Assembly: GCA_905235045.1 (NCBI GenBank)
Contig: CAJOJO010000006.1
Location: 1-40,613 of the forward strand
Source: an uncultured Bacilli bacterium
GTDB taxonomy: Bacteria; Bacillota_I; Bacilli_A; RF39; UBA660
Reading direction: 5' to 3'
DNA length: 40,613 nt
The notes beneath the pieces were generated by a model. It saw only the letters and a list, made by a program, of their open reading frames with translations, did no database searches and had not been told where the DNA came from. Both the position numbers and the translations under genes were made by a program. Positions 14,896 to 31,271 of this stretch are shown here, piece by piece (the stretch's first letter is position 1; each line of letters begins with the position of its first letter).

Positions 14896-14940
14896 GTATT
14901 ACGAAGAGTTTTGTATATCAAAACAAAGGAAGTGATAAAA

Positions 14941-15021: not shown

Positions 15022-15035
15022 AAGAGGTGATCAGA

Positions 15036-15636: not shown

Positions 15637-15677
15637 ATAACAATTTAGTCAAGACCAATAAAAAATGAGGTGAAATA

Positions 15678-17096: not shown

Positions 17097-17099
17097 AAT

Positions 17100-17600: not shown

Positions 17601-17615
17601 AAGTAAGGAGTTATT

Positions 17616-18227
17616 ATGAAACTAAATAGTAAAGAAGCATTGAACTTATTAAATTCTTGTATTGGTATGTCACGTGATGATAATTGGATTACACATTCAA
17701 AGTGTGTTGGAGATAGTGCAGGGACAATAGCTAAAGCATTAAATTTAGATGAAGATTATGCAAAAGCACTTGGATATATTCATGATATTGGTAGAAGATA
17801 TAAATGGAATAATTATGAAGGAGTTATACCACATGCAATAAATGGATATAATTATATTAAAGAACTTGGTTATGATGAAGAATATGCAGGAATATGTATA
17901 AAACATTCATTTTTAAATAATGATATAAATTGTTTAGCTAATGATAGAGATTATACTGATTCAACTGATCCTAATTATGAATTTTTTAAAGAATATGTAT
18001 TAAGTGAATATTCTATTTATGACAAAATAATTTGTTTATGTGATTTAATGTGTAAAACAAATATCATGACAATTGATAAAAGAATGAATGATTTATTAAC
18101 TAGACATGGAGTTTTTAAAAATACACATTATCATTTATTGGAAACAAATAAACTAAAGCAATATTTTGATAATATGTTGGGATATAATCTATATGATTTA
18201 TTTCCAGAAATAAAAGAAAATTTATAG
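17616..18227 (+). CDS. HD-domain phosphohydrolase, paralog 1
   Basis: A 203-residue protein. Metal ligands are seen as His in WITHSKCVGDSAG, the HD pair in LGYIHDIGRR, and His in CIKHSFLNND. It starts at ATG 17616 behind AAGGAG. It is clearly related to the next gene: both contain a GDSAGxIAKALN block, a KIICLCDLM/KIINLCDLM block and end GYNLYDLFPEIK. Substrate unknown; the linked nucleotidase, nucleoside hydrolase and HAD genes suggest nucleotide breakdown. Confidence 0.87.
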   Translation: MKLNSKEALNLLNSCIGMSRDDNWITHSKCVGDSAGTIAKALNLDEDYAKALGYIHDIGRRYKWNNYEGVIPHAINGYNYIKELGYDEEYAGICIKHSFLNNDINCLANDRDYTDSTDPNYEFFKEYVLSEYSIYDKIICLCDLMCKTNIMTIDKRMNDLLTRHGVFKNTHYHLLETNKLKQYFDNMLGYNLYDLFPEIKENL

Positions 18228-18235
18228 GAGAAATT

Positions 18236-18838
18236 ATGAAATTAACAAGTATTGAAGCAAGAGAACTTTTAGAAAAAGAAAGACCTAATCAAAAAGATGA
18301 TAGATGGATAGGGCACTCAATTTGTGTAGGAGATAGTGCTGGTAAAATTGCTAAAGCACTTAATGAAAAAGGAATAGATGTTGATGTTGATAAAGCAATT
18401 ACTCTTGGGTATCTTCATGATATTGGAAAATATAATGGAGAATCACATGGACATGTAATGAGAGGTTATGAATACCTAAAAGAAAAAGGGTATGATGATG
18501 AATACTGTAATATTTGCCTAACACATTCTTATTTGAATAATGATACATTATGCACAGCAGGAGGCATTCCGGGTGATATTCCATTTAGAACTGAATTTAT
18601 TAAAAATCATAAATATACAATTGAAGAAAAAATAATTAATTTATGTGATTTAATGTGTCCTCAAAGTGGCGTGGTTTATACAATTGATAAAAGACTTATA
18701 GATATTATGATTAGAAGAGGTGCTTATTCAAATACACAATATCATATTAAAGAAACATATAAGTTAAAAGAATACTTTGATAATTTACTTGGTTATAATC
18801 TATATGATTTATTTCCAGAAATAAAAGATAATTTATAG
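18236..18838 (+). CDS. HD-domain phosphohydrolase, paralog 2
   Basis: A 200-residue tandem paralog of the preceding gene, starting at ATG 18236 eight bases after its stop with GGAG overlapping the gap. The HD pair is in LGYLHDIGKYNG; other ligands lie in WIGHSICVGD and CLTHSYLNND. Sequence between the copies has diverged well beyond a recent duplication. A terminator directly follows, ending the first transcription unit of the array. Confidence 0.87.
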   Translation: MKLTSIEARELLEKERPNQKDDRWIGHSICVGDSAGKIAKALNEKGIDVDVDKAITLGYLHDIGKYNGESHGHVMRGYEYLKEKGYDDEYCNICLTHSYLNNDTLCTAGGIPGDIPFRTEFIKNHKYTIEEKIINLCDLMCPQSGVVYTIDKRLIDIMIRRGAYSNTQYHIKETYKLKEYFDNLLGYNLYDLFPEIKDNL

Positions 18839-18863
18839 AGATAGATTAAAAATCTATCTTTTT
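18839..18863 (+). terminator. Terminator inside the array
   Basis: AGATAGATT (18839-18847), loop AAA, AATCTATCT (18851-18859), then T. It directly precedes a new promoter. Confidence 0.8.
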
Positions 18864-18864
18864 A

Positions 18865-18873
18865 TGCTATAAT
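18865..18873 (+). promoter_or_regulatory. Internal array promoter
   Basis: TGC plus TATAAT (18868-18873), running out of the terminator T-tract. The next feature is leader ORF 3, so this promoter would drive the leader and the MFS gene. Confidence 0.7.
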
Positions 18874-18896
18874 TGAATAGAAATGGAGTGATTCCT

Positions 18897-18938
18897 ATGG
18901 ATAATAAAACTAATATAAACTGGTTGGTGTTTATTTAG
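18897..18938 (+). CDS. Array leader ORF 3 (type B)
   Basis: Encodes MDNKTNINWLVFI behind GGAGTGATTCC. The TAG overlaps the type B core GTCTAAG (18938-18944). Confidence 0.55.
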   Translation: MDNKTNINWLVFI

Positions 18939-19090
18939 TCTAAGATTCATTCAAAATCCTATAAAATAAGGTGAAAGTAATGATTAATTAATTACATATT
19001 TTTAAAATAAATATATAAAAATAAATAAGAATTCTAAAGAGTAGGCAAAAAATTGCATAGTATTTTAATACTTGGTGTTTACAGTCTAAC
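18938..19090 (+). repeat. Array unit, core B left / core B right
   Basis: Left core GTCTAAG at 18938, right core GTCTAAC at 19084; each is preceded by GGTGTTTA. Between them lie CTATAAAATAAGG, an AT-rich stretch shared almost base for base with the unit at 23778, and a hairpin AGTATT-TT-AATACT just before the right core. Together with the leader, this accounts for the gene-free 18839-19113. Confidence 0.65.
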
Positions 19091-19113
19091 TAATATATAA
19101 AGAGGTGATTAAA

Positions 19114-20304
19114 ATGAACAATAAAATAGGCAAAGATGCAAAACTTTTGATAATAAATGATTTGTTTTATTCTATTACTGCAGTATTTTTAGAAACTTTT
19201 TTGGTAGCTTATTTTTTAAAAATAACAAATGAGAACATTTTTGTAGTAGCAACTTATTATATTACACTTTATACATTGATGGGATTAGGTAATATATGTA
19301 TAGGAAGATTTATTAAGAAAAAACCAAATAGAGGTAAAATTTTTCTTTCTATAGGTGTTTTTTTAAGAGCAACATTCATTTTATCAATAGTATTAATTGG
19401 TAGTAAAGTTTCCAATTATCATATACTAATTGCTATTATTTATTCAATCTCTCAAATATTTTATTGGTGTGCTCATGAAGTTATTTATGTAGATGTAACA
19501 AACGAGAATAACAGAAAAAAATTTATGTCTTTAAAGAAAATATTTAGTAAAATTATCAATATATTAATCCCAATAGTATTGGGTGCTTCAATTGAATTAT
19601 ATTCATTTTCAAAGATAGCTATTTATGTTTTATTTATTAGTGTATTAGAAATTATTTCGGTTTTGTTAATTAAGAATAGTACAAAGATTTCTGATAAGGG
19701 TAAATATAGTATTACTAAATTTTTAAAATGTATAAAAGAGAATAAAATGCATAAAGAAAAATATTATAATTTATCTAGTATTGCTTATGGTATGGTTGAA
19801 AGCGTTATTAGTACAATCATAATTATCATCACAATCATGACATTTAAAACGTCAATTAACCTTGGAATACTTACAACAATATTTTCAATATGTTCAATGA
19901 TTACATTACTTTTATATAATAAATATTATAATAAAAACAATTCCAAATATATTTTAACCATATGTTCAGTAATATTATTATTAAGCGTAATTGGTTTGTT
20001 AATTGATATTAATAAAATAACATTAGTAATATATAATTTCTGTTACGCAAATATATTTTGTATATTTGAAGTTACATATAATGCTAGAAAAGGCGATTTA
20101 GTAGAAGAATGTAAGATTGAAAACTATAAGGAAGAGCATATTGGATTAAGTGCATTTACAATATCACTTGGCAGAGTAACGGGATATTTTTTAATGATGA
20201 TTGTAGCTTTATTAAATGATATTATTTATTTTAAATTATTATTGTTGATTATTACATTAATTGCGCCAATTTATTGCTTATTAATGAATAAAACATACTT
20301 ATGA
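19114..20304 (+). CDS. MFS transporter (array copy 1)
   Basis: A 396-residue integral membrane protein with about 12 hydrophobic segments and short loops, including the MFS loop-2/3-like GRFIKKKPNRGK after the second helix pair. It starts at ATG 19114 behind AGAGGTGA. It fits major-facilitator exporters of drugs or metabolites; no substrate can be read. It shares the 5' unit with the second MFS gene of the array, but the two proteins look only distantly related. Confidence 0.8.
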   Translation: MNNKIGKDAKLLIINDLFYSITAVFLETFLVAYFLKITNENIFVVATYYITLYTLMGLGNICIGRFIKKKPNRGKIFLSIGVFLRATFILSIVLIGSKVSNYHILIAIIYSISQIFYWCAHEVIYVDVTNENNRKKFMSLKKIFSKIINILIPIVLGASIELYSFSKIAIYVLFISVLEIISVLLIKNSTKISDKGKYSITKFLKCIKENKMHKEKYYNLSSIAYGMVESVISTIIIIITIMTFKTSINLGILTTIFSICSMITLLLYNKYYNKNNSKYILTICSVILLLSVIGLLIDINKITLVIYNFCYANIFCIFEVTYNARKGDLVEECKIENYKEEHIGLSAFTISLGRVTGYFLMMIVALLNDIIYFKLLLLIITLIAPIYCLLMNKTYL

Positions 20305-20306
20305 TA

Positions 20307-20315
20307 TGTTATAAT
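20307..20315 (+). promoter_or_regulatory. Internal array promoter before leader 4
   Basis: TGT plus TATAAT (20310-20315) begins 3 bp after the MFS stop. Confidence 0.55.
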
Positions 20316-20342
20316 TATGTATATTTAAAGGTGTTGATCCAA

Positions 20343-20387
20343 ATGAATGAAAATAAAACTAATATCAACTGGTTGATGTTTATTTAG
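20343..20387 (+). CDS. Array leader ORF 4 (type B)
   Basis: MNENKTNINWLMFI behind AAGGTGTTGATCC. The TAG runs into GTCTAAG (20387-20393). Confidence 0.55.
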   Translation: MNENKTNINWLMFI

Positions 20388-20531
20388 TCTAAGATTCATT
20401 CAAACTGCTATAAAATAAGAGATAATGGTACTTTCCTAATTAAATATTTTAAATTAAAATTTATAAAAATTATTAAAAATAGTAAAAAAAATGCTTAAGA
20501 ATTGATATGGTGATAACACCCCGTCAAGACC
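20387..20531 (+). repeat. Hybrid array unit, core B left / core A right
   Basis: The left end is type B (GTCTAAGATTCATTC) but the right end is type A (TGGTGATAACACCCC, then GTCAAGACC at 20523-20531). At 136 bp core to core it is the shortest unit and lacks the second hairpin. It is the mirror image of the hybrid at 23778. Confidence 0.65.
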
Positions 20532-20552
20532 AATAAAAAATGAGGTGAAAAT

Positions 20553-20804
20553 ATGGATGGAAAAGAAATAATAGAATTGCTTGCAGATTATGAACATGAT
20601 AGATGGTCAAGATGGCAAAAATATCTTTTTAGTAAATGTATTTTTAAAGAAGATGGTAGTTTAATCATTCCTAGAGAATTTGTTGATAGATGGACTAGAC
20701 AGATGAATACAAATTATGATTCTTTAAGTAATGAAGAAAAAGTATCAGATAGAAAAGAAGCAATAAAAATTTTGAATTTAATTAAGGAGAATAGACATGA
20801 GTAA
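20553..20804 (+). CDS. Small RyR-like domain protein (83 aa)
   Basis: An 83-residue soluble protein with the pattern YEHDRWSRWQKYLF near the start and LSNEEKVSDRKEAIKIL at the end. This resembles the RyR-type domain and related short proteins common in phages and bacteria (HxRW near the N-terminus, EEKxxDR near the C-terminus). Function unknown; RyR domains are thought to bind nucleotide-like ligands. Its stop overlaps the next gene's start by 8 bp, so the two form one cassette. Confidence 0.6.
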   Translation: MDGKEIIELLADYEHDRWSRWQKYLFSKCIFKEDGSLIIPREFVDRWTRQMNTNYDSLSNEEKVSDRKEAIKILNLIKENRHE

Positions 20805-21294
20805 AGGAATTATTGTTGCTGGTTTTGGTGCAATAGGGAAAACAACTTTAGGTAATAAGTATTCTAATATAATTGATTTAGAATCAGGTTATTATAAATG
20901 GGATAATAGAGGATTTGAAAGTATTCCGTATGAACAACGAAAAGGTAAAAATGAAAGACCTGAAAATCCTGAATGGCCAAATAATTATCATATGGCTGTA
21001 TTAGATGCAATTAATAAATATGATATTGTGTTAACATCTATGCACTGGCATCTACTTGATTTTTTAGAACAAAATAATATAGAGTATTATTTAGCTTATC
21101 CTACTTTAGATAGTGAAAAAGTATTAGAAGAAAGATGTTATGCTAGAGGTAATAATAAAACATTTACTGATAAACTTAAAATTAATTTACATGATTGGAA
21201 TGAAAAAATAAAATTGTATCATCCTAAGAAACTATTAATTATTTCTAAAGATGAATATTTAGAGAATGTATTAAAAAAAGAAAATATTATTTAA
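20797..21294 (+). CDS. P-loop nucleotide-binding protein (kinase-like)
   Basis: A 165-residue protein with Walker A as GFGAIGKTTL (about residues 9-18). The compact size and GKTT loop at the N-terminus fit a small nucleoside or adenylate kinase-like P-loop protein; KVLEERCYARGNN resembles a lid segment. The substrate is unknown. It starts at ATG 20797 behind AAGGAG and overlaps the preceding gene. Confidence 0.7.
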   Translation: MSKGIIVAGFGAIGKTTLGNKYSNIIDLESGYYKWDNRGFESIPYEQRKGKNERPENPEWPNNYHMAVLDAINKYDIVLTSMHWHLLDFLEQNNIEYYLAYPTLDSEKVLEERCYARGNNKTFTDKLKINLHDWNEKIKLYHPKKLLIISKDEYLENVLKKENII

Positions 21295-21307
21295 GGTGTT
21301 GATCCAA

Positions 21308-21367
21308 ATGAATGAAAATAAAACTAATATAAACTGTCTGGTAATGCTTTTTGCAACATTTAGATAA
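21308..21367 (+). CDS. Array leader ORF 5 (type C)
   Basis: MNENKTNINCLVMLFATFR, starting behind AAGGTGTTGATCC. Like the head copy it has the C-type end (TTTGCAACATTTA) and no 150-bp unit; the next gene's AAAAGAGGTG follows directly. Confidence 0.55.
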   Translation: MNENKTNINCLVMLFATFR

Positions 21368-21381
21368 AAGAGGTGAATGTA

Positions 21382-21954
21382 TTGTCTATAGAAGAGTTAT
21401 ATGAAATATTGTTAAGCGAAAAACCTAGCTATAATATATTAAATAATGAAAAGAAAATATTTGAACTTATACCAGAACTTAAGAATTGTAGAGGATTTAA
21501 TCAAAATAATGAATGGCATATATATGATGTTTATGAACACATACTTCATGTTGTAGATAGTGTTCCAGCAAATATAGTTTTAAGAATGGCATCTTTATTT
21601 CATGATATTGGTAAACCAAATTCATATACAGAAGATGAAAATAAAATAGGTCATTTCTATGGCCATTGGGATGAATCTAAAAAGATATTTGATGACTTTG
21701 CCCTTAAACATAATCTTGATTCAACAATGAGTAGTTTAATATCTAGCTTAATCTATTATCACGATATTAATATTTCTAAATTATCTAATGAAGAATTAAA
21801 TAAATTGCATGAAACACTTGGTGAACAAGGAATAAAAATGCTTTTTGAACTAAAAACAGCTGATTTATTAGCTCAAAATAAAAAATTTCATTATATTTCA
21901 AAAGATTATGAAGAACAAAAAGACAGATTATTATTGAAATATAAAAGGAAGTGA
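21382..21954 (+). CDS. HD-domain phosphohydrolase
   Basis: A 190-residue protein. The start chosen is TTG 21382, 6 nt behind AGAGGTG; the GTG at 21373 lies within that site, and every other array gene uses this spacing. HD ligands: His in YDVYEHILHVVD, the HD pair in ASLFHDIGKPNS, then FYGHWDESKK and IYYHDINI. The pattern resembles the HD module of CCA-adding enzymes and stand-alone phosphohydrolases. Substrate unknown. Confidence 0.85.
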   Translation: MSIEELYEILLSEKPSYNILNNEKKIFELIPELKNCRGFNQNNEWHIYDVYEHILHVVDSVPANIVLRMASLFHDIGKPNSYTEDENKIGHFYGHWDESKKIFDDFALKHNLDSTMSSLISSLIYYHDINISKLSNEELNKLHETLGEQGIKMLFELKTADLLAQNKKFHYISKDYEEQKDRLLLKYKRK

Positions 21955-21959
21955 TTCCT

Positions 21960-22001
21960 ATGAATAATAAAACCAATATAAATTGGTTGATAACAATTTA
22001 G
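21960..22001 (+). CDS. Array leader ORF 6 (type A)
   Basis: MNNKTNINWLITI behind GGAAGTGATTCC. Core GTCAAGACC at 22001-22009, with no 150-bp unit. Here AATTGGT (left of the core) and ACCAATT (its end) can form a 7-bp stem, extended by TGA/TCA with two bulged bases. Confidence 0.6.
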   Translation: MNNKTNINWLITI

Positions 22002-22030
22002 TCAAGACCAATTAAAAAAGAGGTGATCAC

Positions 22031-22450
22031 ATGAACTACATATTAGGATATGACTGTGATGGTAATGAAATTTATGAATATAGAGTTTTACGCGCTATTT
22101 GGTCGAATGATATAGATATAAAAGATTTAGATGATGCTGACCCAAGACAATATTGTGCTATTATAGGTGATGACGATATTGCCTATGCAATTAGTGTTTA
22201 TGATTGGTGGAATAGTGATTTAATTAGAAAACGAGAAAATATTGATGATAATGAAGAAATACCAATAATTGTAAAGCCAATAAATGAAATGGAAAATTAT
22301 GAAGTAGCACAATGTAGCGATGGGGAATTCTATTATAGTTTAGATCGTAATGAATTAAAAGAAAAATTAAATTCAATTTTAAATAATAATCATAATAAAG
22401 TTAAAAAATTGGTAAATAAAAAAGGATATAATACTCATGAATTAAAATAA
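22031..22450 (+). CDS. Hypothetical protein (139 aa), acidic
   Basis: This small soluble protein starts at ATG 22031 behind AGAGGTGATC. It is strongly acidic in the middle (DIDIKDLDDADPRQY, IGDDDIAYAI) and has a lysine-rich C-terminal end. No family recognised. As an orphan cassette gene between two type A junctions it has no informative neighbours. The C-terminus overlaps the degraded leader 7. Confidence 0.65.
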   Translation: MNYILGYDCDGNEIYEYRVLRAIWSNDIDIKDLDDADPRQYCAIIGDDDIAYAISVYDWWNSDLIRKRENIDDNEEIPIIVKPINEMENYEVAQCSDGEFYYSLDRNELKEKLNSILNNNHNKVKKLVNKKGYNTHELK

Positions 22451-22489
22451 AACAAACATAAACTGGTTGATTACGATTTAGTCAAGACC
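22437..22489 (+). repeat. Array leader 7, degraded (type A)
   Basis: ATG 22437 is followed by AAT TAA: the usual GAA codon has become a stop. The frame behind it still reads NKTNINWLITI and ends in the core GTCAAGACC (22481-22489). No 150-bp unit. CTGGT and ACCAG on either side can pair, with C-G where copy 6 has T-A. Confidence 0.6.
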
Positions 22490-22509
22490 AGATAAAAAGA
22501 GGTAAATAT

Positions 22510-23034
22510 ATGAAATTAATCAATAAAAAAGACTTTAAAAAGAATAATTATGAATACATATGGTATGCTTGTTATGGTTCAAATATTAATTATAAGAGAT
22601 TTATGATGTATATTAATGGCGGTAAACACGCAAGTAAAACTGGATGTAATGATAAATCTGAACCATTAGAATATAGAAGTTATATTATTGAACATCCAAT
22701 ATACTTTGCTGGCGAGAGTAAAAATTGGACGGGTGGCATGGCATTTTTAGACTATAAAAGTACCGGAAAAACTTATGGTAAAATATATAAAATAAAAAGT
22801 GAACAATTTAAAGATATATTCGAACAAGAAAATGAGTTATATGATACTATTATATTGTTGGGATATATAGATAAATTACCTATTTTAACTTTTACTGCAA
22901 AAAATAAATTAAACAATCTTTTAAATAATCCGAGTGACAAATATAAAGATATAATAATTGGTGGTTTAAAGGATTTGAAAGTTGATTTAACAGAAGAAGA
23001 ATTAAATAGATATTTAAGTAATTATGAGGAGTGA
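22510..23034 (+). CDS. Gamma-glutamylcyclotransferase-like (GGCT fold) protein
   Basis: A 174-residue protein with the GGCT-fold signature YGSN in WYACYGSNINYKRF (about residues 17-30). Other marks are YFAGESKNWTGGMAFLD and GKTYGKIYKI, as in bacterial GGCT-like proteins. Enzymes of this fold cyclise gamma-glutamyl groups to 5-oxoproline. It is followed 4 bp later by a gamma-glutamyl hydrolase-type amidotransferase, which suggests the pair handles gamma-glutamyl compounds. Function inferred. Confidence 0.75.
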   Translation: MKLINKKDFKKNNYEYIWYACYGSNINYKRFMMYINGGKHASKTGCNDKSEPLEYRSYIIEHPIYFAGESKNWTGGMAFLDYKSTGKTYGKIYKIKSEQFKDIFEQENELYDTIILLGYIDKLPILTFTAKNKLNNLLNNPSDKYKDIIIGGLKDLKVDLTEEELNRYLSNYEE

Positions 23035-23038
23035 TATT

Positions 23039-23728
23039 ATGAATAAACCAATAATAGGATTAGTAGCTAAACATACTAAAACTGATAGTACTAGACCTAA
23101 TTCTTTAATTAGAGATGAATACAAACAAGCAATTTTTGATAATGGGGGTATTCCAATTGGATTATTATCTCCAAATGCAGAAATAATGTTTACCGATGAT
23201 AATTGGAAACAAGAAGAAACTAAATTAGATAAAGAAAAAATTATTGATGAGATTAATTTGTGTGATGGAATAATATTATTAGGTGGTTCAGAAAGTGAAG
23301 TTTGGGAACCATTTATTGCAAAATATTGTTATGATAATAATATTCCATGTCTTGGTATATGCGCTGGACAAAATAATATTGTTAGGGCATTAGATGGAAC
23401 AATAATGCCAATTCCTAATCCTGATAAGCATTCAAGACCAAATGATATGTATGTACATAATATGAAATTAATAGATAAAGATTCAACATTTTATTCAATA
23501 ATTAAAAGAGATGAGATAAAAGTTAATTCAAGACATAAAAATGCTATTGATAATAATTCTATTTTAAATGTAGTTGCGGTGTGTGATGATAATTATAAAG
23601 AAGTTGTTGAGGCAAAGGATAAAGATTTTTATATTGGACTTAGATTTCACCCAGAATCTTTATATAAAATAGATGAAAATATGAATAATATATTTAAGAA
23701 ATTTATTGAAGCATGTAAAAGAAATTGA
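23039..23728 (+). CDS. Class-I glutamine amidotransferase-like hydrolase (peptidase C26), copy 1
   Basis: A 229-residue protein starting at ATG 23039 behind GAGGAG; the in-frame ATG at 23024 lies in the previous gene. The nucleophile elbow is LGICAGQNN with catalytic Cys at about residue 112, and the His-Glu pair is in RFHPESL. It fits the gamma-glutamyl-gamma-aminobutyrate hydrolase (PuuD) group, which cleaves gamma-glutamyl amides. It forms one cassette with the GGCT-like gene and is paralogous to the gene at 25408. Confidence 0.88.
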   Translation: MNKPIIGLVAKHTKTDSTRPNSLIRDEYKQAIFDNGGIPIGLLSPNAEIMFTDDNWKQEETKLDKEKIIDEINLCDGIILLGGSESEVWEPFIAKYCYDNNIPCLGICAGQNNIVRALDGTIMPIPNPDKHSRPNDMYVHNMKLIDKDSTFYSIIKRDEIKVNSRHKNAIDNNSILNVVAVCDDNYKEVVEAKDKDFYIGLRFHPESLYKIDENMNNIFKKFIEACKRN

Positions 23729-23733
23729 GTGGG

Positions 23734-23778
23734 ATGAATGAAAATAAAACAAATATTAACTGGTTGATAACAATTTAG
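23734..23778 (+). CDS. Array leader ORF 8 (type A)
   Basis: Consensus MNENKTNINWLITI. The ribosome binding site is poor (GAGTGGG close to the ATG). Ends in GTCAAGACC (23778-23786). Confidence 0.55.
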   Translation: MNENKTNINWLITI

Positions 23779-23938
23779 TCAAGACCCTCCAAAATAATTA
23801 TAAAATAAGGTGAAAGTAATGATTAATTAATTAAATATTTTTAAAATAAATATATAAAAATAAATAAGAATTCTAAAAAGTAGACTAAAAATAGCATAGT
23901 ATTTGATACTTGGTGTTTACAGTCTAACTTTTCAAAAA
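23778..23938 (+). repeat. Hybrid array unit, core A left / core B right
   Basis: Left core GTCAAGACC, right core GTCTAAC at 23932, 154 bp apart. From TATAAAATAAGG onward the unit matches the one at 18938 nearly base for base, so the switch of type lies between the left core and that hairpin. The hairpin AGTAT-TTG-ATACT precedes the right core. Confidence 0.65.
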
Positions 23939-23952
23939 AGAGGTGATAAAAG

Positions 23953-25161
23953 ATGAATTATGAAACAGAAAAAAAGAAATATCTGGTATCTTCAGTATTA
24001 GATACAGCAAATAATAGAATTGCTAGTGCATCTTTTATTACTGCTTTTGCTGTTTATTTGGGATTATCAGATTTAGCAATAGGAATATATGCTGTATTAG
24101 ATACGATGACAAATATAATACAAGTTTTTGCTGCACCTTTATTCTATAAAATTGGGCAATCAAAAAAAGTTGTATTAACAAATTATTCTATTTATAGAAT
24201 ATCATCTGTATCAATGGCGTTTATTCCATTTATATCAAATGATATTAGTATAAGAACAATATTGTTTTTTATTCTTGCAACAATATATGCTGTTACAGGT
24301 GAAATGGGCTACATAACTTTTGTTAATTGGCGAATGACACTAATAAAAAAAGAAGACAGAACTACATTTGCTGCTAAAAGAAATTTTTTTAAAAATACAG
24401 TTGTTTTAGCATTTAGTTTATGTATGGGTATAGTTCTAGATAGATTTACGGCATTCGGTTATGAATTATATGGATTTTTAATATTATTTATAATTGTATT
24501 TATAATTGCATTTATAGATATATACCTTAGAATTCATACCTTTAAACCAGAAGTTATTCAAGAAAAAATTGGTTTAAAAGAAAATATTATTATTCCAGCC
24601 AAAGATAAAGACTTTAGAAGCGTTCTTATAACAGGTGGATTAAATAGACTTGCTTATGGATTAGGAACAATGTATTTGAATGTTTTCTTATTAAGATATC
24701 TTAAAGTTGGTTATTTATATTATAGTATTCTTAATATATTAATTAATTTATCAGAAGCATTTTCCAGTAAATATTGGGCAAATAAATCTAAAGATAGAAA
24801 ATGGAGTAATGTTATACTGCCTATGTGTATAATTTTAATTATTTCATTTGCTATGCTACTAATTAATAATAGTATACTAGTCTATATATTACCTTTAATT
24901 TATATATTAATTGGATTTGGTAATGCTTCATATGAAATGTATGATCATATTGCTATATATGAAGCATCAAAAGATAAATATCAAACATCATATGTAACAT
25001 TTGAAAGGTTTATTGAAGGCATTGTTACAATGATACTTCCAATTCTTTCATATACAATTTTTAAAGAAAGTGATAATGCAATTAAATTAACATTTATACT
25101 TGCAATTGCTTTATATGTTATACTATTTATGTATTATAAATTTTTAAATAAGAGGAAGTGA
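23953..25161 (+). CDS. MFS transporter (array copy 2)
   Basis: A 402-residue membrane protein with about 12 hydrophobic segments. A central loop (about residues 205-225) splits it into two six-helix halves as in MFS proteins. It starts at ATG 23953 behind AGAGGTGA. Probably an exporter; the substrate is not visible. It differs in sequence from the MFS gene at 19114 although both follow the same array unit. Confidence 0.8.
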   Translation: MNYETEKKKYLVSSVLDTANNRIASASFITAFAVYLGLSDLAIGIYAVLDTMTNIIQVFAAPLFYKIGQSKKVVLTNYSIYRISSVSMAFIPFISNDISIRTILFFILATIYAVTGEMGYITFVNWRMTLIKKEDRTTFAAKRNFFKNTVVLAFSLCMGIVLDRFTAFGYELYGFLILFIIVFIIAFIDIYLRIHTFKPEVIQEKIGLKENIIIPAKDKDFRSVLITGGLNRLAYGLGTMYLNVFLLRYLKVGYLYYSILNILINLSEAFSSKYWANKSKDRKWSNVILPMCIILIISFAMLLINNSILVYILPLIYILIGFGNASYEMYDHIAIYEASKDKYQTSYVTFERFIEGIVTMILPILSYTIFKESDNAIKLTFILAIALYVILFMYYKFLNKRK

Positions 25162-25166
25162 TTTCG

Positions 25167-25220
25167 ATGAATGAAAATAGGTTAGACAAAACAAACATCA
25201 ACTGGTTGATAACAATTTAG
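25167..25220 (+). CDS. Array leader ORF 9 (type A, three extra codons)
   Basis: MNENRLDKTNINWLITI behind GGAAGTGATTTC. Nine extra bases contain GTTAGAC, the reverse complement of the type B core. Ends in GTCAAGACC (25220-25228). Confidence 0.6.
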   Translation: MNENRLDKTNINWLITI

Positions 25221-25385
25221 TCAAGACCTTCTTGAATTCCTTATAATATAAGGAAAAATTGAATAATAGATCTTGCATGATTTTAATAAAAATATGATAA
25301 AATAAGTAAAAATAAGTTAAAAATGAGTAATTTTGAATATAAAAATGCTTAGAAATTGATATGGTGATAACACCCCGTCAAGACC
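25220..25385 (+). repeat. Array unit, core A / core A
   Basis: Cores GTCAAGACC at 25220 and 25377. Inside: hairpin CCTTATAATATAAGG (25239-25253), box GATCTTGCATG (about 25269), a possible extended -10 TATGATAAAAT, a hairpin AAAAT-GAGTA-ATTTT, then TGGTGATAACACCCC before the right core. Confidence 0.7.
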
Positions 25386-25407
25386 AATAAAAAATGAGGT
25401 GATGTAT

Positions 25408-26112
25408 ATGAATAATAAACCTATTATAGGAGTAGTAAGTAAACCAAATATTTTTTGCGATGATAAATTATTTACATCACAATTTGTTTATGATGGAGTT
25501 AGAAATGCTGTATTAAAAAATGGTGGACTTGTTATAGGAATATTACCAACAAAAGTTTCTACTAAATTTTGTGATTCAGATGAAGTAGTAAATAATTCAA
25601 ATTTTTCACAATCCGAATTAGAAGATTTATATTCGTTAATTGATAAATGTGATGGTATAATAATTCAAGGTGGTTTATCCAGTGATGATTATGAGATAAA
25701 AGCAGCTAAGTATGCAATAGATAATGATATACCAATACTTGGAATATGTGCAGGATTTAATAACATTATTAGAGCAATGGGTGGGAAAGTTTTTTGTATT
25801 AATAATACAATTCATAATACTGAAGATGGCTCAATAGTTCATAAAAATATAATTAAAGAAAATACATTATTATATGATATATTAAAAACAAAAGAAATTG
25901 ATGTTAATAGTATTCATACAATGTTTGCAAAAGAGGAAGACATTAAAAATTTAGAAATATCAGCATACTCAGATGATGGATATGTTGAAGCAGTAGAACT
26001 TAGTGATAAAAAGTTTTGCTTAGGTATTAAATGGCATCCTGAATTAATGCTAAATGATGATAATATGAATAATATATTTAAATACTTTATCAAAACATGT
26101 AAAAGGAGTTGA
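25408..26112 (+). CDS. Class-I glutamine amidotransferase-like hydrolase (peptidase C26), copy 2
   Basis: A 234-residue paralog of the gene at 23039. ATG 25408 is 6 nt behind GAGGTG; GTG 25399 and ATG 25402 are upstream in-frame alternatives. The nucleophile elbow is LGICAGFNN and the His-Glu pair is in KWHPEL. It likely hydrolyses a gamma-glutamyl amide. Two paralogs in separate cassettes of one array suggest either duplication by cassette copying or independent capture; their sequences differ widely. Confidence 0.87.
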   Translation: MNNKPIIGVVSKPNIFCDDKLFTSQFVYDGVRNAVLKNGGLVIGILPTKVSTKFCDSDEVVNNSNFSQSELEDLYSLIDKCDGIIIQGGLSSDDYEIKAAKYAIDNDIPILGICAGFNNIIRAMGGKVFCINNTIHNTEDGSIVHKNIIKENTLLYDILKTKEIDVNSIHTMFAKEEDIKNLEISAYSDDGYVEAVELSDKKFCLGIKWHPELMLNDDNMNNIFKYFIKTCKRS

Positions 26113-26117
26113 TCCAA

Positions 26118-26210
26118 ATGAATGAAAATAAAACTAATATAAATTGGTTGGCTTGTATTTATGACGTACATCACTTAAACCCTTATAAAATGGGGACTTT
26201 TAAGAAATGA
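26118..26210 (+). CDS. Array leader ORF 10 (type D, 30 aa)
   Basis: Begins MNENKTNINWLACIYDVHH and runs on through the CCTTATAAAATGGGG region to a TGA at 26208. The core region TGGCTTGTA (26149-26157) differs from types A-C. Ribosome binding site AAGGAGTTGATCC. Confidence 0.55.
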   Translation: MNENKTNINWLACIYDVHHLNPYKMGTFKK

Positions 26211-26320
26211 AATCTTGCAAGTTTTAATAAAAAAGAAGCAAAAAATGAAAAAAGCAGATTAAAAATTGCTCATTTTTGAGAGGAATTAGAGTACTGGCTT
26301 GTAATATGCCGACACATTTA
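26149..26320 (+). repeat. Array unit, core D / core D
   Basis: TGGCTTGTA occurs at 26149 and again at 26295, each followed by a related TG(A/C)CG...CA(C/T)TTA segment. The unit contains the CCCTTATAAAATGGGG hairpin, the box ATCTTGCAAG, and a hairpin AAAAAT-TGCTC-ATTTTT before the right core. Confidence 0.6.
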
Positions 26321-26344
26321 ATATTTATAAAAAGAGGTGAAATA

Positions 26345-26803
26345 ATGGATATTAGAAAGGTTAATATAAATGATTATAAAGATGTAATTAATTTATATAA
26401 GCAATTATTTGATGCCGAAAAAGTTTTTGATGATAATATAGTGAGAACATATAAAGTTGACGAAAAAGAAGAGAAAAAAATAAAAAAAAGGATTAAATCT
26501 AGAAAAGAAATCTTTTTAATAGCGGAAATTGATAATAAAATTGTTGGTTTAATAGATGGATATATAATAGAAAGTATTTATTATAAGGAGAAGATATCAT
26601 ATCTTGATCATTTATGTGTAGACGAAAAATTTAGGAATAACGAGATTGGTTCAAAACTAATTGAAAAGTTCAGTGAAATATCGAAAAAGAAAGGTGCTAG
26701 TTATATAAAACTAAATGCTTTTGAGAAAAATATACCTGCGGTTAGCCTTTATAATAAGCATGGATTTGAAAGTTACTCAATTTATTATATGAAGAAAATT
26801 TAA
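26345..26803 (+). CDS. GNAT-family N-acetyltransferase (array copy 1)
   Basis: A 152-residue protein starting at ATG 26345 behind AGAGGTGA. The acetyl-CoA site is seen as YLDHLCVDEKFRNNEIGSKL (motif A; the usual R-x2-G-x-G/A reads RNNEIG) and the motif B region as ALYNKHGFE-like AVSLYNKHGFES near the end. These are the hallmarks of the GNAT fold, which transfers acetyl groups to amines on proteins, antibiotics or metabolites. Substrate unknown. Confidence 0.88.
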   Translation: MDIRKVNINDYKDVINLYKQLFDAEKVFDDNIVRTYKVDEKEEKKIKKRIKSRKEIFLIAEIDNKIVGLIDGYIIESIYYKEKISYLDHLCVDEKFRNNEIGSKLIEKFSEISKKKGASYIKLNAFEKNIPAVSLYNKHGFESYSIYYMKKI

Positions 26804-26822
26804 GTAAAAGGAGTTGATTCCA

Positions 26823-26867
26823 ATGAATGAAAATAAAACTAATATAAACTGGTTGATAACAATTTAG
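26823..26867 (+). CDS. Array leader ORF 11 (type A)
   Basis: Consensus MNENKTNINWLITI behind AAAGGAGTTGATTCC. Ends in GTCAAGACC (26867-26875). Confidence 0.6.
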   Translation: MNENKTNINWLITI

Positions 26868-27031
26868 TCAAGACCTTCTTGAATTTCTTATAATATAAGG
26901 GAAAACTGAAAAAAAGATCTTACATGTATTAAATAAAAATATGTTAAAATAAGTATAAATAAATTAAAAATAAGTAATTTCGAATAAAAAATGCTTAGGA
27001 ATTGATATGGTGATAACACCCCGTCAAGACC
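26867..27031 (+). repeat. Array unit, core A / core A
   Basis: Cores at 26867 and 27023, 156 bp apart, near-identical to the unit at 25220. TATGTTAAAAT is a possible extended -10. The right core contains ATGGTGATAACACC, whose ATG (27007) is in frame with the next gene. Confidence 0.7.
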
Positions 27032-27051
27032 AATTAAAAAGAGGTGTTATT

Positions 27052-27621
27052 ATGAAATATGATATGTTAGAAACAAAGAGATTAATTTTAAAATCTGGGA
27101 CTTATGAAGATTATTTAACTGTCTATGAATATGATTTTACTAAATTAAGAAATATAGCAGGCGAATTTGAATTTGTGAAATTAGATCAAAATAAGGTAGA
27201 AGAATATTCAAAATATCATATGGAAGAAAAAAATAATGTATTTGATTTTATAATATATTTAAAAAATAATATGACACCAATTGGGAATGTTATTTTAGAT
27301 AAAACTAATGAAATGAAAAATTCATTAGAAATAGCATTTAACTTACATCCTAACTATTGGAGAAATGGTTATATGACAGAGGCAGTTATAGAAATTATGA
27401 AATATATTTTTAATAATACAAATTATAATGCTATTATTTATGGCTATGCAGAAGATAATTATAAATCTAAAGGTGTAAATAAAAAAATAGGATTTGAGTA
27501 CTATGATGAATATGAAGAATACTATCCAAGATTTAATAAAAATATAAGAACAATAAAAACAATTATGACAAAAGATAGATTTAAAAAAATATATAATAAG
27601 GAAGTGATTATAAATGGATGA
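27052..27621 (+). CDS. GNAT-family N-acetyltransferase, RimJ/RimL-like (array copy 2)
   Basis: A 189-residue protein. It opens MLETKRLILKSGTYEDY, the standard RimJ/RimL-type start, with IGNVILDK and NLHPNYWRNGYMTEAV as the acetyl-CoA region and KSKGVNKKIGFEYYDE as motif B. ATG 27052 lies behind AGAGGTG; an in-frame ATG at 27007 inside the right core would add 15 residues and is less likely. The last codons overlap leader 12. Confidence 0.9.
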   Translation: MKYDMLETKRLILKSGTYEDYLTVYEYDFTKLRNIAGEFEFVKLDQNKVEEYSKYHMEEKNNVFDFIIYLKNNMTPIGNVILDKTNEMKNSLEIAFNLHPNYWRNGYMTEAVIEIMKYIFNNTNYNAIIYGYAEDNYKSKGVNKKIGFEYYDEYEEYYPRFNKNIRTIKTIMTKDRFKKIYNKEVIING

Positions 27622-27667
27622 TAAAAAGTTAACCCAATTAAATATTACCTGGTTGATAACAATTTAG
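27614..27667 (+). CDS. Array leader ORF 12 (type A, divergent start)
   Basis: MDDKKLTQLNITWLITI, overlapping the GNAT stop, behind AAGGAAGTGAT. The first half is unlike the other copies but the end WLITI and core GTCAAGACC (27667-27675) are kept. Confidence 0.55.
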   Translation: MDDKKLTQLNITWLITI

Positions 27668-27831
27668 TCAAGACCTTCTTGAATTCCTTATAATATAAGG
27701 AAAAATTAAAAATTAGATCCTGCATGTTTTAAATAAAAATATGTTAAAATAAGTAAAAATAAGTTAAAAATGAGTAATTTTGAATAAAAATTGCTTAGTA
27801 ATTGATATGGTGATAACACCCCGTCAAGACC
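27667..27831 (+). repeat. Array unit, core A / core A
   Basis: Cores at 27667 and 27823, 156 bp apart. Same parts as the unit at 25220: CCTTATAATATAAGG, GATCCTGCATG, TATGTTAAAAT, AAAAT-GAGTA-ATTTT, TGGTGATAACACCCC. Confidence 0.7.
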
Positions 27832-27852
27832 GATTAAAAAAGAGGTGAAATT

Positions 27853-28371
27853 ATGATTTCTTTATCAGAATACAAACAACATCTGCTCAGCTTTTATACT
27901 TGGCCAATAGATGGTAATATAGATGAAATTGAGAAAAGAAAGAAAATAATGAATGAGAAATATTCGGATGAATATTTTGAAAAAATTATTTCTGACACAA
28001 ATAGTTTTATATATGAAGTATTATTATCTGAAACTGTAAAGTATGATTATTTTAAAAAAGAAATAGATGATGATACAACTTCATATATAGATTTGAATTT
28101 ACATGGAGGTTGGCCTTCAGATACTTTATTTGTTGATGATATTTCAGGAATAATAATAAGTAAGTATTTGATGCAACAAGTTTTTGGAAGTTATTTGCAA
28201 ATTGATGTTGAATGTGATGAAATCGAAGATACAAGTGATGAAGATATTTTAAGTTATTACTATAGATATTATATTTACATGCAAGGATTTCCTGAAAACA
28301 TTGATGAAATAAAAGAAAGCTTTTTTGGAAAAAGTAAACAGTTAGTAAAAGGAGGTAATACTCATGAATGA
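27853..28371 (+). CDS. Hypothetical protein (172 aa), acidic
   Basis: A soluble, acidic protein starting at ATG 27853 behind AGAGGTGAAA. It has an aromatic-rich stretch (ILSYYYRYYIYMQGF) and no recognised motif. As a single-gene cassette it gives no context for function. Its stop overlaps leader 13, whose ribosome binding site GGAGG lies in its last codons. Confidence 0.65.
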   Translation: MISLSEYKQHLLSFYTWPIDGNIDEIEKRKKIMNEKYSDEYFEKIISDTNSFIYEVLLSETVKYDYFKKEIDDDTTSYIDLNLHGGWPSDTLFVDDISGIIISKYLMQQVFGSYLQIDVECDEIEDTSDEDILSYYYRYYIYMQGFPENIDEIKESFFGKSKQLVKGGNTHE

Positions 28372-28423
28372 AAATAAAACTAATATCAACTGTCTGGTAA
28401 CACTTTTTGCAACACTTATCTGA
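28364..28423 (+). CDS. Array leader ORF 13 (type C)
   Basis: MNENKTNINCLVTLFATLI behind AAAGGAGG, overlapping the upstream stop. The core TGCAACACTTA lies at 28408-28418. Confidence 0.6.
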   Translation: MNENKTNINCLVTLFATLI

Positions 28424-28573
28424 AATGCTTATAAAATAAGGATTCGCAAGGGACAACATCTTGCATTTTTGATATAAAAAAATTATAGAAATTAATAAAA
28501 ATAGTCAAAAAGTACTAAAAATAGTAATTTTTAGTGTTTGCATTTTGGGGTTGATATTCTTATGCAACACTTA
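28408..28573 (+). repeat. Array unit, core C / core C
   Basis: TGCAACACTTA at 28408 and 28563, 155 bp apart. Inside: CTTATAAAATAAGG, CATCTTGCAT, and the hairpin AAAAAT-AGTA-ATTTTT. This is the only C junction with the 150-bp unit; the other two (14941, 21308) lack it. Confidence 0.65.
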
Positions 28574-28591
28574 ATTATAGAAGGTGATATA

Positions 28592-29158
28592 ATGTCATTA
28601 AGGTATATAAAGAGTAGTGAATATAAAAATAAAATAGAAGAATTATATTTAACATCTTTTCCAGAAGAAGAAAGATTTCCATTTTGGATATTAGATGAAT
28701 GTTCTAAAGAAGATAATTCGGATTTATTAGCTATATTAGATAATGACAGATTTATTGGAATGTGTTATCTTGTTAATTGTAATAATGCATATTATCTTAT
28801 GTATTTAGCAGTATCTGAAGAACTTAGAAATCAAAATTATGGTTCTAGAATACTTGCTGATTTAAGAGAAAAATATGAAACACTATTTTTATCAGTTGAT
28901 GAACCAATTGATGATATAAGTATTAGACGTAAGAACTTTTATTTAAGAAATGGATTTTATGATACAAATAAGTACTATGAAGATACTAGTGTTAATTATG
29001 AAGTGTTATGCACAAATAATGAATATGAAATAACAGATGATAATATGCAAAAGAGATATACTAATATGACAAATAATTCAGAACTATTTAAAGTAATATC
29101 AAATACCTTTAATGCAGATTTTGTTAATTTAAAAGATAAAAAAATAATGAAAAATTAA
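28592..29158 (+). CDS. GNAT-family N-acetyltransferase (array copy 3)
   Basis: A 188-residue protein starting at ATG 28592 behind AAGGTGAT. MYLAVSEELRNQNYGSRIL carries the acetyl-CoA motif (R-N-Q-N-Y-G), and FYLRNGFYDTNKYYED is the motif B region. About 40 C-terminal residues extend beyond the core domain. It starts just after the right-hand C core. Substrate unknown. Confidence 0.88.
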   Translation: MSLRYIKSSEYKNKIEELYLTSFPEEERFPFWILDECSKEDNSDLLAILDNDRFIGMCYLVNCNNAYYLMYLAVSEELRNQNYGSRILADLREKYETLFLSVDEPIDDISIRRKNFYLRNGFYDTNKYYEDTSVNYEVLCTNNEYEITDDNMQKRYTNMTNNSELFKVISNTFNADFVNLKDKKIMKN

Positions 29159-29171
29159 GGAAGTGATTTCT

Positions 29172-29216
29172 ATGAACGAAAATAAAACAAATATAAACTG
29201 GTTGATATTGATTTAG
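29172..29216 (+). CDS. Array leader ORF 14 (type B)
   Basis: MNENKTNINWLILI behind GGAAGTGATTTC. Ends in GTCTAAG (29216-29222). Confidence 0.6.
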   Translation: MNENKTNINWLILI

Positions 29217-29366
29217 TCTAAGTTTTATTCAAACTCCTATAAAATAAGGATAAACTAAGTATTTAGTAATTACATTTTTTAATAGATAATTACTAAAAAG
29301 TATAAAAAATAACTAAAAATAGTTGAAAATAGCAAAGTATTTGATACTTGGTATTGACAGTCTAAG
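29216..29366 (+). repeat. Array unit, core B / core B (TATTGA variant)
   Basis: GTCTAAG at 29216 and 29360, 144 bp apart. Both cores are preceded by a TATTGA-type segment, where the other B sites have TGTTTA. The unit contains CTATAAAATAAGG, an inverted pair TTAGTAATTA/TAATTACTAA, and the hairpin AGTAT-TTG-ATACT. Confidence 0.65.
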
Positions 29367-29390
29367 ATATAGTAAACGAGGTGAAATAAT

Positions 29391-30248
29391 GTGGGATATA
29401 TTGAAAAATTAGAAAATCATAAAAGATTTGAATTGAGTGATATACAAGAATTTATACAAGAACAGTTAAAAGTGTTGGATTTGAAAGAATACGTTAATAA
29501 TATTGAAGAAGAAAATGTTTTTTGCGGAATAGCAGCATATGGTATGGATGATAAAGCAATATCTGTTAGTAATAATTTTAAAGATGATTTTAAATATTAT
29601 AAGAAAAAATGCTTTGAGTCAAATTTATTACAAATGATTTCCTGTAATAATAATGATTTATATAATTTATATATAATAAATACTGTGTTTCATGAAATAT
29701 GGCATGCAAGACAAAATAAAGAATTAAATGAAAATAGAAATTCATCTTATTCACATTTAAATGATATTTCGTTTAAAATTATGTCACTTAGTGGATCAAC
29801 ATATCATCATTATCATGATAGATATTTTACTGAATTTGATGCGATAATTAATTCTATTAAATTAACATTAAATTTTATAGAAAAATTTAATTTTCAAGAA
29901 AATGCATTGTTAATACTTAACAAATCATTTGCTAAAAAAATTTTAGATTGTTATAAAAAAACAGATTATATTGAAAATGAAGAATATGGTTCACCGATTT
30001 TAACATTAGAATTTTTAATTAAGTATTTGAGCTTTACTAATAAATTTCCTAGTTTAGAAGTAAACATGATAATTGAAATGTATAAAAATCAATATGGTTC
30101 AGATGATGATTTAAGCAATCTCATGAACGGCATTCAAATATCTGAAAGAATGTTAGAAGTTTTAAATAATATTAAAAAAGGTGATATTAGAACTACAAAT
30201 ATTTTACAAATATTAAGTTCAGAAAAAAAAGAAAATAAACATATATAA
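29391..30248 (+). CDS. Putative HExxH metalloprotein (285 aa)
   Basis: GTG 29391 sits 7 nt behind GAGGTG; an out-of-frame ATG overlaps it at 29389. The protein carries HEIWHA within a helix (NTVFHEIWHARQNKE, about residues 98-112), a zinc-metalloprotease-type motif. A later TEFDAIINS, after a His-rich stretch YHHYHDRY, may give the third ligand. No signal peptide or membrane segment. It does not closely resemble the HExxH protein at 12509. Function unknown. Confidence 0.7.
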   Translation: MGYIEKLENHKRFELSDIQEFIQEQLKVLDLKEYVNNIEEENVFCGIAAYGMDDKAISVSNNFKDDFKYYKKKCFESNLLQMISCNNNDLYNLYIINTVFHEIWHARQNKELNENRNSSYSHLNDISFKIMSLSGSTYHHYHDRYFTEFDAIINSIKLTLNFIEKFNFQENALLILNKSFAKKILDCYKKTDYIENEEYGSPILTLEFLIKYLSFTNKFPSLEVNMIIEMYKNQYGSDDDLSNLMNGIQISERMLEVLNNIKKGDIRTTNILQILSSEKKENKHI

Positions 30249-30271
30249 TTATAGATAAGGAGTTGATCCAA

Positions 30272-30358
30272 ATGAATGAAAATAAAACTAATATAAATTG
30301 GTTGATATTGTTTTATTCAACTCCTTTAACAAATCCTTATAAAATAAGGAAAAACTAA
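30272..30358 (+). CDS. Array leader ORF 15 (type F, 28 aa)
   Basis: Begins MNENKTNINWLILFYSTP and reads through the CCTTATAAAATAAGG hairpin to TAA at 30356. Ribosome binding site AAGGAGTTGATCC. Confidence 0.55.
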   Translation: MNENKTNINWLILFYSTPLTNPYKIRKN

Positions 30359-30480
30359 GAATTGAATCTTACATATTTTTATTAAAAAATAGTGAAAATT
30401 TGTAAAAAATGATAAAAATTAGCTAAAAATAATGATTTTTGGTGGAGGAATTAAGGGCTTGATATTTCCAGTTAACCCCA
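30302..30480 (+). repeat. Last array unit, core F / core F
   Basis: TTGATATT at 30302 and 30459, each followed by a loosely similar CAACTCC/TTAACCCC segment, 157 bp apart. It holds CCTTATAAAATAAGG, GAATCTTACAT, and the hairpin AAAAAT-AATG-ATTTTT. No cassette gene follows within 25 bp; a terminator-like hairpin comes next. This covers the gene-free stretch 30249-30599. Confidence 0.55.
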
Positions 30481-30500: not shown

Positions 30501-30561
30501 AACTTTTACTGAGTGTTCGGAAAATAGTAATATTGCGATGTAATCAAATTATAGAAAAGTG

Positions 30562-31238: not shown

Positions 31239-31271
31239 ATATTCATAATATTAAGATATTACGAACTGATG

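Follow-up and report, generated by a model that had tools for sequence, protein, structure and literature searches.

Cassettes upstream of rbgA

The window, by which we mean the whole 40,613-nt stretch of DNA that was analyzed (contig CAJOJO010000006.1 of an uncultured Bacilli bacterium), contains 15 junctions upstream of rbgA, the gene for a ribosome-assembly GTPase. Ten junctions are long, with a left (L) and a right (R) core, and 5 are short, with a single core. The features are as follows, with L–R distances given at the R cores.

14938–14990 (+), first rbgA-type 5′ fragment (MENLEKNSGVSKSNINY..), read from its sequence as the array leader; a C-type short junction is next
14991–15016 (+), short junction, C-type core only
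15633–15658 (+), short junction, A-type core only
18899–18922 (+), rbgA 5′ copy (mini-ORF MDNKTNINW..), at the right end of the upstream cassette; the same peptide starts the real rbgA in relatives
18923–18946 (+), L core, type B
18947–19070 (+), inner segment with dyad box and phased A-tracts
19071–19090 (+), R core, type B, 148 bp
20372–20395 (+), L core, type B, mixed junction
20509–20531 (+), R core, type A, 137 bp, apparent chimera
21337–21362 (+), short junction, C-type
21986–22011 (+), short junction, A-type
22466–22491 (+), short junction, A-like
23763–23786 (+), L core, type A, mixed junction
23909–23928 (+), R core, type B, 146 bp
25205–25228 (+), L core, type A
25363–25385 (+), R core, type A, 158 bp
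26147–26172 (+), L core, type D
26293–26318 (+), R core, type D, 146 bp
26852–26875 (+), L core, type A
27009–27031 (+), R core, type A, 157 bp
27652–27675 (+), L core, type A
27809–27831 (+), R core, type A, 157 bp
28393–28418 (+), L core, type C
28550–28572 (+), R core, type C, only the 3′ stretch matching L, 157 bp
29201–29224 (+), L core, type B, TATTGA variant
29347–29366 (+), R core, type B, TATTGA variant, 146 bp
30301–30324 (+), L core, type F, of the last, recombinase-carrying element
30458–30479 (+), R core, type F, 157 bp
31322–32530 (+), large serine recombinase, degraded, with 50–51% identity to the intact enzyme (411 aa) of locus L073
33354–34244 (+), rbgA, the 5′ end of which, up to codon Trp, is read as an element-borne fragment (MSENKDKVFSNTVINW)

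A copy of the rbgA 5′ end (the mini-ORF) precedes every L core, and each cassette has such a replacement rbgA start at its right end; a role for the mini-ORF as a regulatory leader peptide was rejected, as it is the start of rbgA. The array is a tandem stack of cassettes at the Trp codon of rbgA (AAYTG|G), with the insertion point directly to the left of the L core. The same pattern was found at 25 junctions that run directly into GTATCC-like rbgA sequence. TG precedes the break in all 82 long junctions of the comparative set described below and at all 25 rbgA sites, AAYT[GA] being partly imposed by the finder; outside this set, the window junction at 14991 has TA, and that at 27652 sits within ACCTG. 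Whole cassettes are common to different genera (for example, 94.4% over 1345 bp between genomes G025 and G155, with the match stopping at the crossover). The cassettes, which are mostly single-gene, are stacked before an essential ribosome-assembly gene in rumen bacteria. PADLOC returned no match for 10 window proteins, and the exact pattern had no match in viral contigs. The pattern occurred in 112 of 193 genomes, a count that includes many chance matches (a reversed control matched too) and is not a prevalence figure.

Coupling of the left and right cores

A preliminary description of this DNA had reported that 8 of the 10 long junctions carry the same core type at both ends, and exact re-reading of the coordinates bore this out, the other 2 being mixed. 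Both mixed junctions look like chimeras: at 20372, a B left core and a B inner segment are followed by an A right end; at 23763, an A left core is combined with an inner segment 95% like that of the junction at 18923 (family D7). The F/F pair at 30301, previously called weak, is better than that, with 11/14 in alignment-free L–R scoring, whereas agreement in the C/C pair at 28393 is confined to the 3′ stretch (TGCAACACTT).

The correlation of L and R against shuffled pairs, proposed in that description, was then sought in 82 long junctions from the window and its relatives, 18 of 100 profile hits having been left out because they were not full length or their crossover was unassigned. The strongest long-range couplings were L–R pairs (MI/APC over 236 columns, with an effective number of 61 for the 82 junctions), and the leading ones mostly join L 5–8 with R 160–163 and L 16–22 with R 169–175. 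They are identities and not complements, both cores having the same sense. Identity between an L and its own R averaged 8.48/12 versus 5.09 for other pairs, a value reached in 0 of 20,000 permutations (77 junctions gap-free in the windows compared, the 5 with gaps being dropped). For 16 type representatives the figures were 8.0 and 4.67 (again 0 of 20,000), and an alignment-free test on 81 junctions gave 11.3/14 versus 9.25 (sd 0.11), the highest value among 20,000 permutations being 9.75. The 2 ends are thus kept in step beyond chance, as had been claimed, which independent drift would not achieve. Shared ancestry, in which junctions would be subfamilies whose cores both keep old type marks, receives very little credence from us: the inner segments likewise sort into related groups, but descent makes an L resemble other Ls and not its own R, and the coupling persists among the 16 representatives, which were chosen to differ.

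Column by column, the coupling is confined to L 4–9 and 16–23 and absent outside them in the shuffle test; across the 6 nt between the 2 stretches (L columns 10–15), own and shuffled pairs agree equally. The middle of the R core is 1–2 nt shorter, with a gap of 4 nt in 39 and 5 nt in 13 of 57 junctions versus 6 nt in L. The finer claim that even a B sub-variant agrees at both ends holds for the 2 window junctions concerned and not in general: among 14 scored B junctions (2 more were not scorable), 11 read TATTG/TATTG, 1 TGTTT/TGTTT, and 2, both in locus L050, TGTTT/TATTG (Fisher p 0.21).

Spacing of the cores and phasing of the spacer

The L–R distance has modes at 157 and 146 bp, with further values at 137 and 125 bp, which are roughly whole helical turns apart. 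Of 57 junctions (24 of 81, with scores below 11, were left out), 35 fall at 156–158 bp, 16 at 145–148, 5 at 152–155, and 1 at 124. Sixteen type/length classes gave a Rayleigh R of 0.66 at 10.5 bp (p about 0.001, related types not being independent), and off-phase spacings (139, 152, 154, and 155 bp) exist. A-runs in the spacer are phased at 10, 20, and 31 bp (z of 19, 12.6, and 6.8, respectively).

These features bear on the suggestion that a target core is duplicated on insertion. Had there been duplication or gene conversion, the cores would agree over their full length; the middle is unmatched, and duplication is therefore not supported, the more so with an R that is shorter, a quantized distance, and a phased spacer. 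One form of this explanation takes the inner segment for a small mobile element that entered a short cassette within its core, with duplication of that core; it would account for the one-core junctions (5 of 15 in the window) and for a cassette found with and without the inner segment (92.7% alike in loci L114 and L119). The short form in L114 reads, however, as a loss via the 4-nt repeat GTAC, and insertion occurs at rbgA, not inside a core; we regard this version as improbable. The earlier reading of these as recombination (att-like) sites stands. L and R are nonetheless not attL and attR of an inserted inner segment, since the insertion point is the rbgA codon to the left of L; the left end of a single cassette contains both.

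Free variation of L, an R that follows it by identity, and a constant target could also be explained by a guide RNA transcribed from the spacer and R, the R part recognizing L DNA (cf. the donor loop of the IS110 bridge RNA) and a constant part finding rbgA. The IS110 bridge RNA itself was rejected, as the IS110 (DEDD) transposase is absent from 8 of 14 array genomes. No consensus RNA structure emerged (RNAalifold 0.0 kcal on 64 sequences, with shuffles giving the same, a comparison of little power), Rfam gave no match, and helical phasing with phased A-tracts speaks for DNA. A guide RNA accordingly has only a slim chance of being the answer.

A large serine recombinase beside rbgA

The window recombinase is degraded: its N-terminal part is in a different frame from the ORF at 31365–32438, and another frame break occurs close to the end. 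Resolvase, recombinase, and zinc-ribbon domains were found. A 411-aa large serine recombinase adjoins rbgA in 8 of 10 named loci (RbgA 46–63% identical to that of the window), within a block (78–100% protein identity) directly before the gene. The upstream neighbors of this block differ between loci, and the sequence agreement stops at AATTG|G. An L-spacer-R site lies upstream of the short recombinase in 8 of the 11 fetched loci that have one. A large serine recombinase encoded in the element and next to one att site, as in IME/SCC-like integrative elements, was found only for recombinase-carrying elements, not for single-gene cassettes.

On balance, we think it probable that L is the half-site at the crossover and that R is an accessory copy, with one protein binding both over a loop of curved DNA; the likeliest protein is the large serine recombinase. 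Cassettes would be inserted one after another at one rbgA codon, yielding a tandem stack, each with the order L, curved spacer of about 150 bp, R, Shine-Dalgarno sequence, cargo gene or genes, and a replacement rbgA start ending in AAYTG. Insertion between AAYTG and G would restore a readable rbgA and recreate the target, and because each insertion does so, cassettes would accrete. L would be the half-site immediately to the right of the crossover, and R an internal second copy of it with slightly tighter spacing; a whole-turn spacer with phased A-tracts would keep the two on one helical face. One DNA-binding protein would have to read both cores, and because it does, the presumed contact stretches (L 4–9 and 16–23) would stay identical while the rest drifts; core types would then be different binding specificities. 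We infer that this protein is most likely the rbgA-adjacent recombinase of about 411 aa, which some of the elements carry. TG would be the crossover dinucleotide and R an accessory (res-like) site; R would be required, and cassettes would be moved in trans.

Several observations run against this proposal. The L114 recombinase is 78% identical to that of L073, yet the L114 L core is unlike that of L073: L type does not follow recombinase sequence; a pairing of L types with recombinase types was abandoned, the cases being too few and this one arguing against it. All types share one rbgA target, with which a single set of recombinase DNA contacts is not obviously compatible. No PF07508 recombinase was found in 2 array-holding genomes (G034, 93% complete, and G122, 89%), and the window copy is degraded. 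The off-phase spacings also count against it, and to our knowledge large serine recombinases do not usually have accessory sites. That L and R are instead operators or excision-factor sites, read by some type-specific DNA-binding protein and not by the recombinase, would draw on the same coupling and looping evidence and would fit L types untied to recombinase sequence. However, no such protein was seen with the arrays, and L directly touches the crossover, where a recombinase must bind; we judge this alternative unlikely.

Comparison with known systems

The arrays may, as a tentative generalization that we hold to be possible more than probable, represent a serine-recombinase counterpart of the integron: a platform in many genera of one family whose target, the start of an essential gene, renews itself, with cassettes that bear a helically phased address in two copies. 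The letters of this address would be free to vary provided that the copies change in step, and the target would stay constant. Donor and target recognition would then be uncoupled, unlike in any described serine integrase that we know of. A large uncultured rumen lineage would have a gene-capture platform of its own, distinct from tyrosine-recombinase integrons, and the DNA code of the recombinase family, or of any other reader of L and R, could be derived from the naturally varied L/R pairs. An odd repeat becomes a recombination site that is open to testing and has its internal control built in, namely 2 copies that must agree.

Like integron cassette arrays (IntI, attI, attC), the rbgA arrays consist of mostly single genes on the same strand with a repeated recombination site between them, a leader site at one end, and cassettes common to different genomes. 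Unlike in integrons, the cores are direct and not inverted repeats, lacking the attC R″/R′ arms; the cassettes insert inside rbgA and restore it, and the adjoining enzyme is a serine recombinase. No IntI-type tyrosine recombinase was found at the arrays examined, and an integron integrase was rejected as a candidate: PF00589 matches occur in 14 of 14 genomes, none at array coordinates. The only 2 such proteins of genome G000 are taken as XerC and XerD, as they group with 2 ortholog sets found across the genomes; a partial tyrosine recombinase lies upstream in L071 only.

Res sites of the Tn3 family combine a crossover site and accessory sites that are bound by one serine recombinase, with a DNA loop and altered half-site spacing, and L and R would resemble them in these respects if one serine recombinase reads both. 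Tn3-family enzymes are, however, small resolvases that act on inverted-repeat subsites and resolve cointegrates, whereas here the recombinase is large, the cores have the same sense, and the reaction would be integration.

Among titles and opening lines of abstracts, the literature offered no match for serine-recombinase cassette arrays. SCC/ECC elements are described, in the excerpts available, as using the large serine recombinases CcrAB for site-specific chromosomal integration of variable cargo (PMC6222049); the rbgA array shares these 3 traits and differs in its target gene, in units of about 1 kb that usually hold one gene, and in a half-site duplicated within each unit. According to excerpts from 2 further reports, streptococcal ICEs, including Tn5253, target the 5′ end of rbgA and restore its coding sequence (PMC8571831, PMC4701971). 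The cassette array uses the same end of rbgA and likewise restores its coding sequence; it differs from these ICEs in that they use a tyrosine integrase (PMC4701971), that their attB is duplicated as a direct repeat, and that no cassette array is described for them in those excerpts (PMC8571831, PMC4701971).

Agreement between left and right cores

The window is part of contig C6 in a host genome of 884 kb (78% complete). By exact coordinates, its genes, which share one strand, are separated at 15 junctions: 10 are long (left core, L, and right core, R) and 5 are short (one core only). The preliminary description had reported L and R of the same type in 8 of the 10 long junctions, with 2 mixed, and exact re-reading bore this out. 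A profile search over the window and its relatives yielded 100 hits, and the 82 that were full length were aligned over 236 columns (61 effective sequences). Most top long-range couplings in this alignment pair L columns 5–8 with R columns 160–163 and L 16–22 with R 169–175, with the same base on both sides; the strongest also include some pairs inside the inner segment between L and R. The identity of a left core to its own R was 8.48 of 12 positions versus 5.09 for foreign pairs (77 of the 82 junctions), and none of 20,000 permutations reached 8.48. Among 16 mutually different representatives, the values were 8.0 and 4.67 (0 of 20,000 permutations reached 8.0), and alignment-independent scoring gave 11.3 of 14 versus 9.25. 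The correlation against shuffled pairs, proposed earlier as a check, is thus present in the larger set, and the agreement is no accident of the window. The match is strong on average and imperfect, because the own R was unbeaten by any other R in 33 of 77 junctions (10 of 16 representatives). The agreement of sub-variants did not prove general: TATTG occurs at both cores in 11 junctions and TGTTT in 1, with a mismatch in 2.

Per column, coupling was limited to L 4–9 and L 16–23; none was detected at L positions 0–3 and 10–15, and none was clear past L 23. The gap between the coupled stretches is 6 nt in L versus 4 nt (39/57) or 5 nt (13/57) in R, a pattern at odds with copying of an entire core, so the duplication of a target core on insertion that was originally suggested is not supported. 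The two-stretch pattern instead fits selection by a protein that touches the DNA at two points separated by one turn.

The L–R distance is 156–158 in 35 of 57 junctions, 145–148 in 16, 152–155 in 5, and 124 in 1; a single type may show both 156 and 145, and other junctions are 21 and 32 bp shorter. For a period of 10.5 bp, the Rayleigh statistic across 16 type/length classes, some of them off phase, was 0.66 (p about 0.001), but any period from 10 to 11 fitted nearly as well. Within the inner segment, runs of at least 4 A recur at intervals of 10, 20, and 31 bp (z of 19, 12.6, and 6.8 versus block-shuffled controls), with troughs between these peaks. We take the inner segment to be curved DNA, its curvature predicted from this spacing, that would close a loop between L and R.

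Cassette layout, mobility, and cargo

Every left core is preceded by a short reading frame, MNENKTNINW.., which matches the beginning of a protein that we take from its sequence to be RbgA, a ribosome-assembly GTPase; Pfam assigns a 50S ribosome-binding GTPase domain. Because this frame runs on into rbgA sequence at 25 places in relatives' loci, the right end of a cassette comprises a Shine–Dalgarno sequence, the start codon, and the first rbgA codons up to AAYTG, followed by the next cassette or rbgA itself. Such an end implies the order L, inner segment, R, cargo, and rbgA start, with L and R both in the left end of one cassette.

Cassettes recur across genera, with 94.4% identity over 1345 bp between genomes G025 and G155 and 97.6% over 578 bp between G153 and G184; loci L114 and L119 have one in common (92.7% over 780 bp). 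These identities far exceed those of RbgA, and the block shared by G025 and G155 stops within 5 bp of the crossover. Several cassettes in L056, L060, L072, and other loci of relatives also carry related cargo genes that different genera share at 80%–94% nucleotide identity. Of 32 junction pairs whose inner segments are alike, 31 have unrelated cargo, and likeness stops at about R position 21, so the L–spacer–R module acquires new cargo. The simplest route would be homologous recombination between inner segments, as suggested by the two mixed junctions.

Among the products of the window cargo (15027–30248) are acetyltransferases, HD-domain proteins, two Peptidase_C26/GATase proteins, a NUDIX protein, and an MFS transporter. 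For several cargo proteins in this interval there was no Pfam match, and PADLOC returned no matches among the ten tested.

A serine recombinase beside rbgA

A search with the 411-aa large serine recombinase of locus L073 returned 10 named loci, of which L110 and L073 are one contig. All come from metagenome-assembled Bacilli, under the titles Bacillales, Erysipelotrichaceae, or Bacilli; rumen samples or a rumen series appear in several titles, and we infer a rumen origin for all 10. Among solved structures, the nearest in sequence are the catalytic domains of TnpX and the TP901-1 integrase. In 8 of the 10 loci, rbgA starts about 43 bp past the recombinase stop; the recombinases are 78%–100% identical, and the RbgA proteins are 46%–63% identical to that of the window. 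The sequences are nearly identical across the recombinase as well as the borrowed rbgA start and diverge directly after AATTG, at which point another cassette-like left end follows in L113 and L119.

A wider search of 186 genomes returned 30 loci, each with no more than 1.5 kb of flanking sequence, and 18 of them contain rbgA. Ten of these 18 belong to another type of element, in which two long recombinases follow each other in tandem; pairs of about 572 and 523 aa lie directly upstream of rbgA in L128, L131–L133, and L137–L142. The longer stretches retrieved around the tandem elements gave no L–spacer–R site. Such a site lies upstream of the short recombinase in 8 of 11 fetched loci (the window, L060, L073, L114, L152, L166, L167, and L169), at more than 2 kb in L114, L152, and L169, where a cassette border may intervene; none was found in L150 (0.9 kb available) or L165, and L151 gave a weak hit only.

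Given this placement in 8 of 11 loci, the short serine recombinase is the natural candidate reader of L and R. In our reading, there is loose symmetry between the half-sites flanking TG (rbgA side reversed, GTTTATATTAGTTTT; left core, GTTGATAACAATTTAG), which would be expected for a recombinase dimer. Against this candidate, differing L types precede very similar recombinases, one constant target serves all L types, and genomes G034 and G122 have arrays but no recombinase of this kind (PF07508). Of the two claims, a common reader for L and R on the same face of a DNA loop is far better founded than the identity of that reader as this recombinase.

Other sites and neighbors

A second repeated site is a 22-bp near-palindrome, TCGGAAAATAGTAATATTGCGA or TCGGAAGATTAAGATATTGCGA.

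Positions of the 22-bp near-palindrome
Window: 30517–30538, 31243–31264
L073: 906, 1931, 2825
L077: 2691, 4162
L114: 4232, 6268
L111: 995, 1693

It borders promoter-bearing genes within recombinase-carrying elements, and the shared recombinase block has its left edge there; it looks like a nested cassette site. At about 4184 in L077, after a palindromic site, lies an inverted fragment that resembles rbgA on the right side of the insertion codon, suggesting an inversion. In L071, a tyrosine recombinase (1–465, minus strand), cut by the contig end, lies upstream of an array in divergent orientation.

Comparison with known systems

Searches of open-licence literature yielded no description of single-gene arrays with serine recombinases or of matched duplicated half-sites. 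Cassette chromosomes with serine recombinases are known (PMC6222049), strand-biased elements work with tyrosine recombinases (PMC10214605), and streptococcal ICEs with tyrosine integrases integrate in the 5′ end of rbgA and restore the gene (PMC4701971, PMC8571831).
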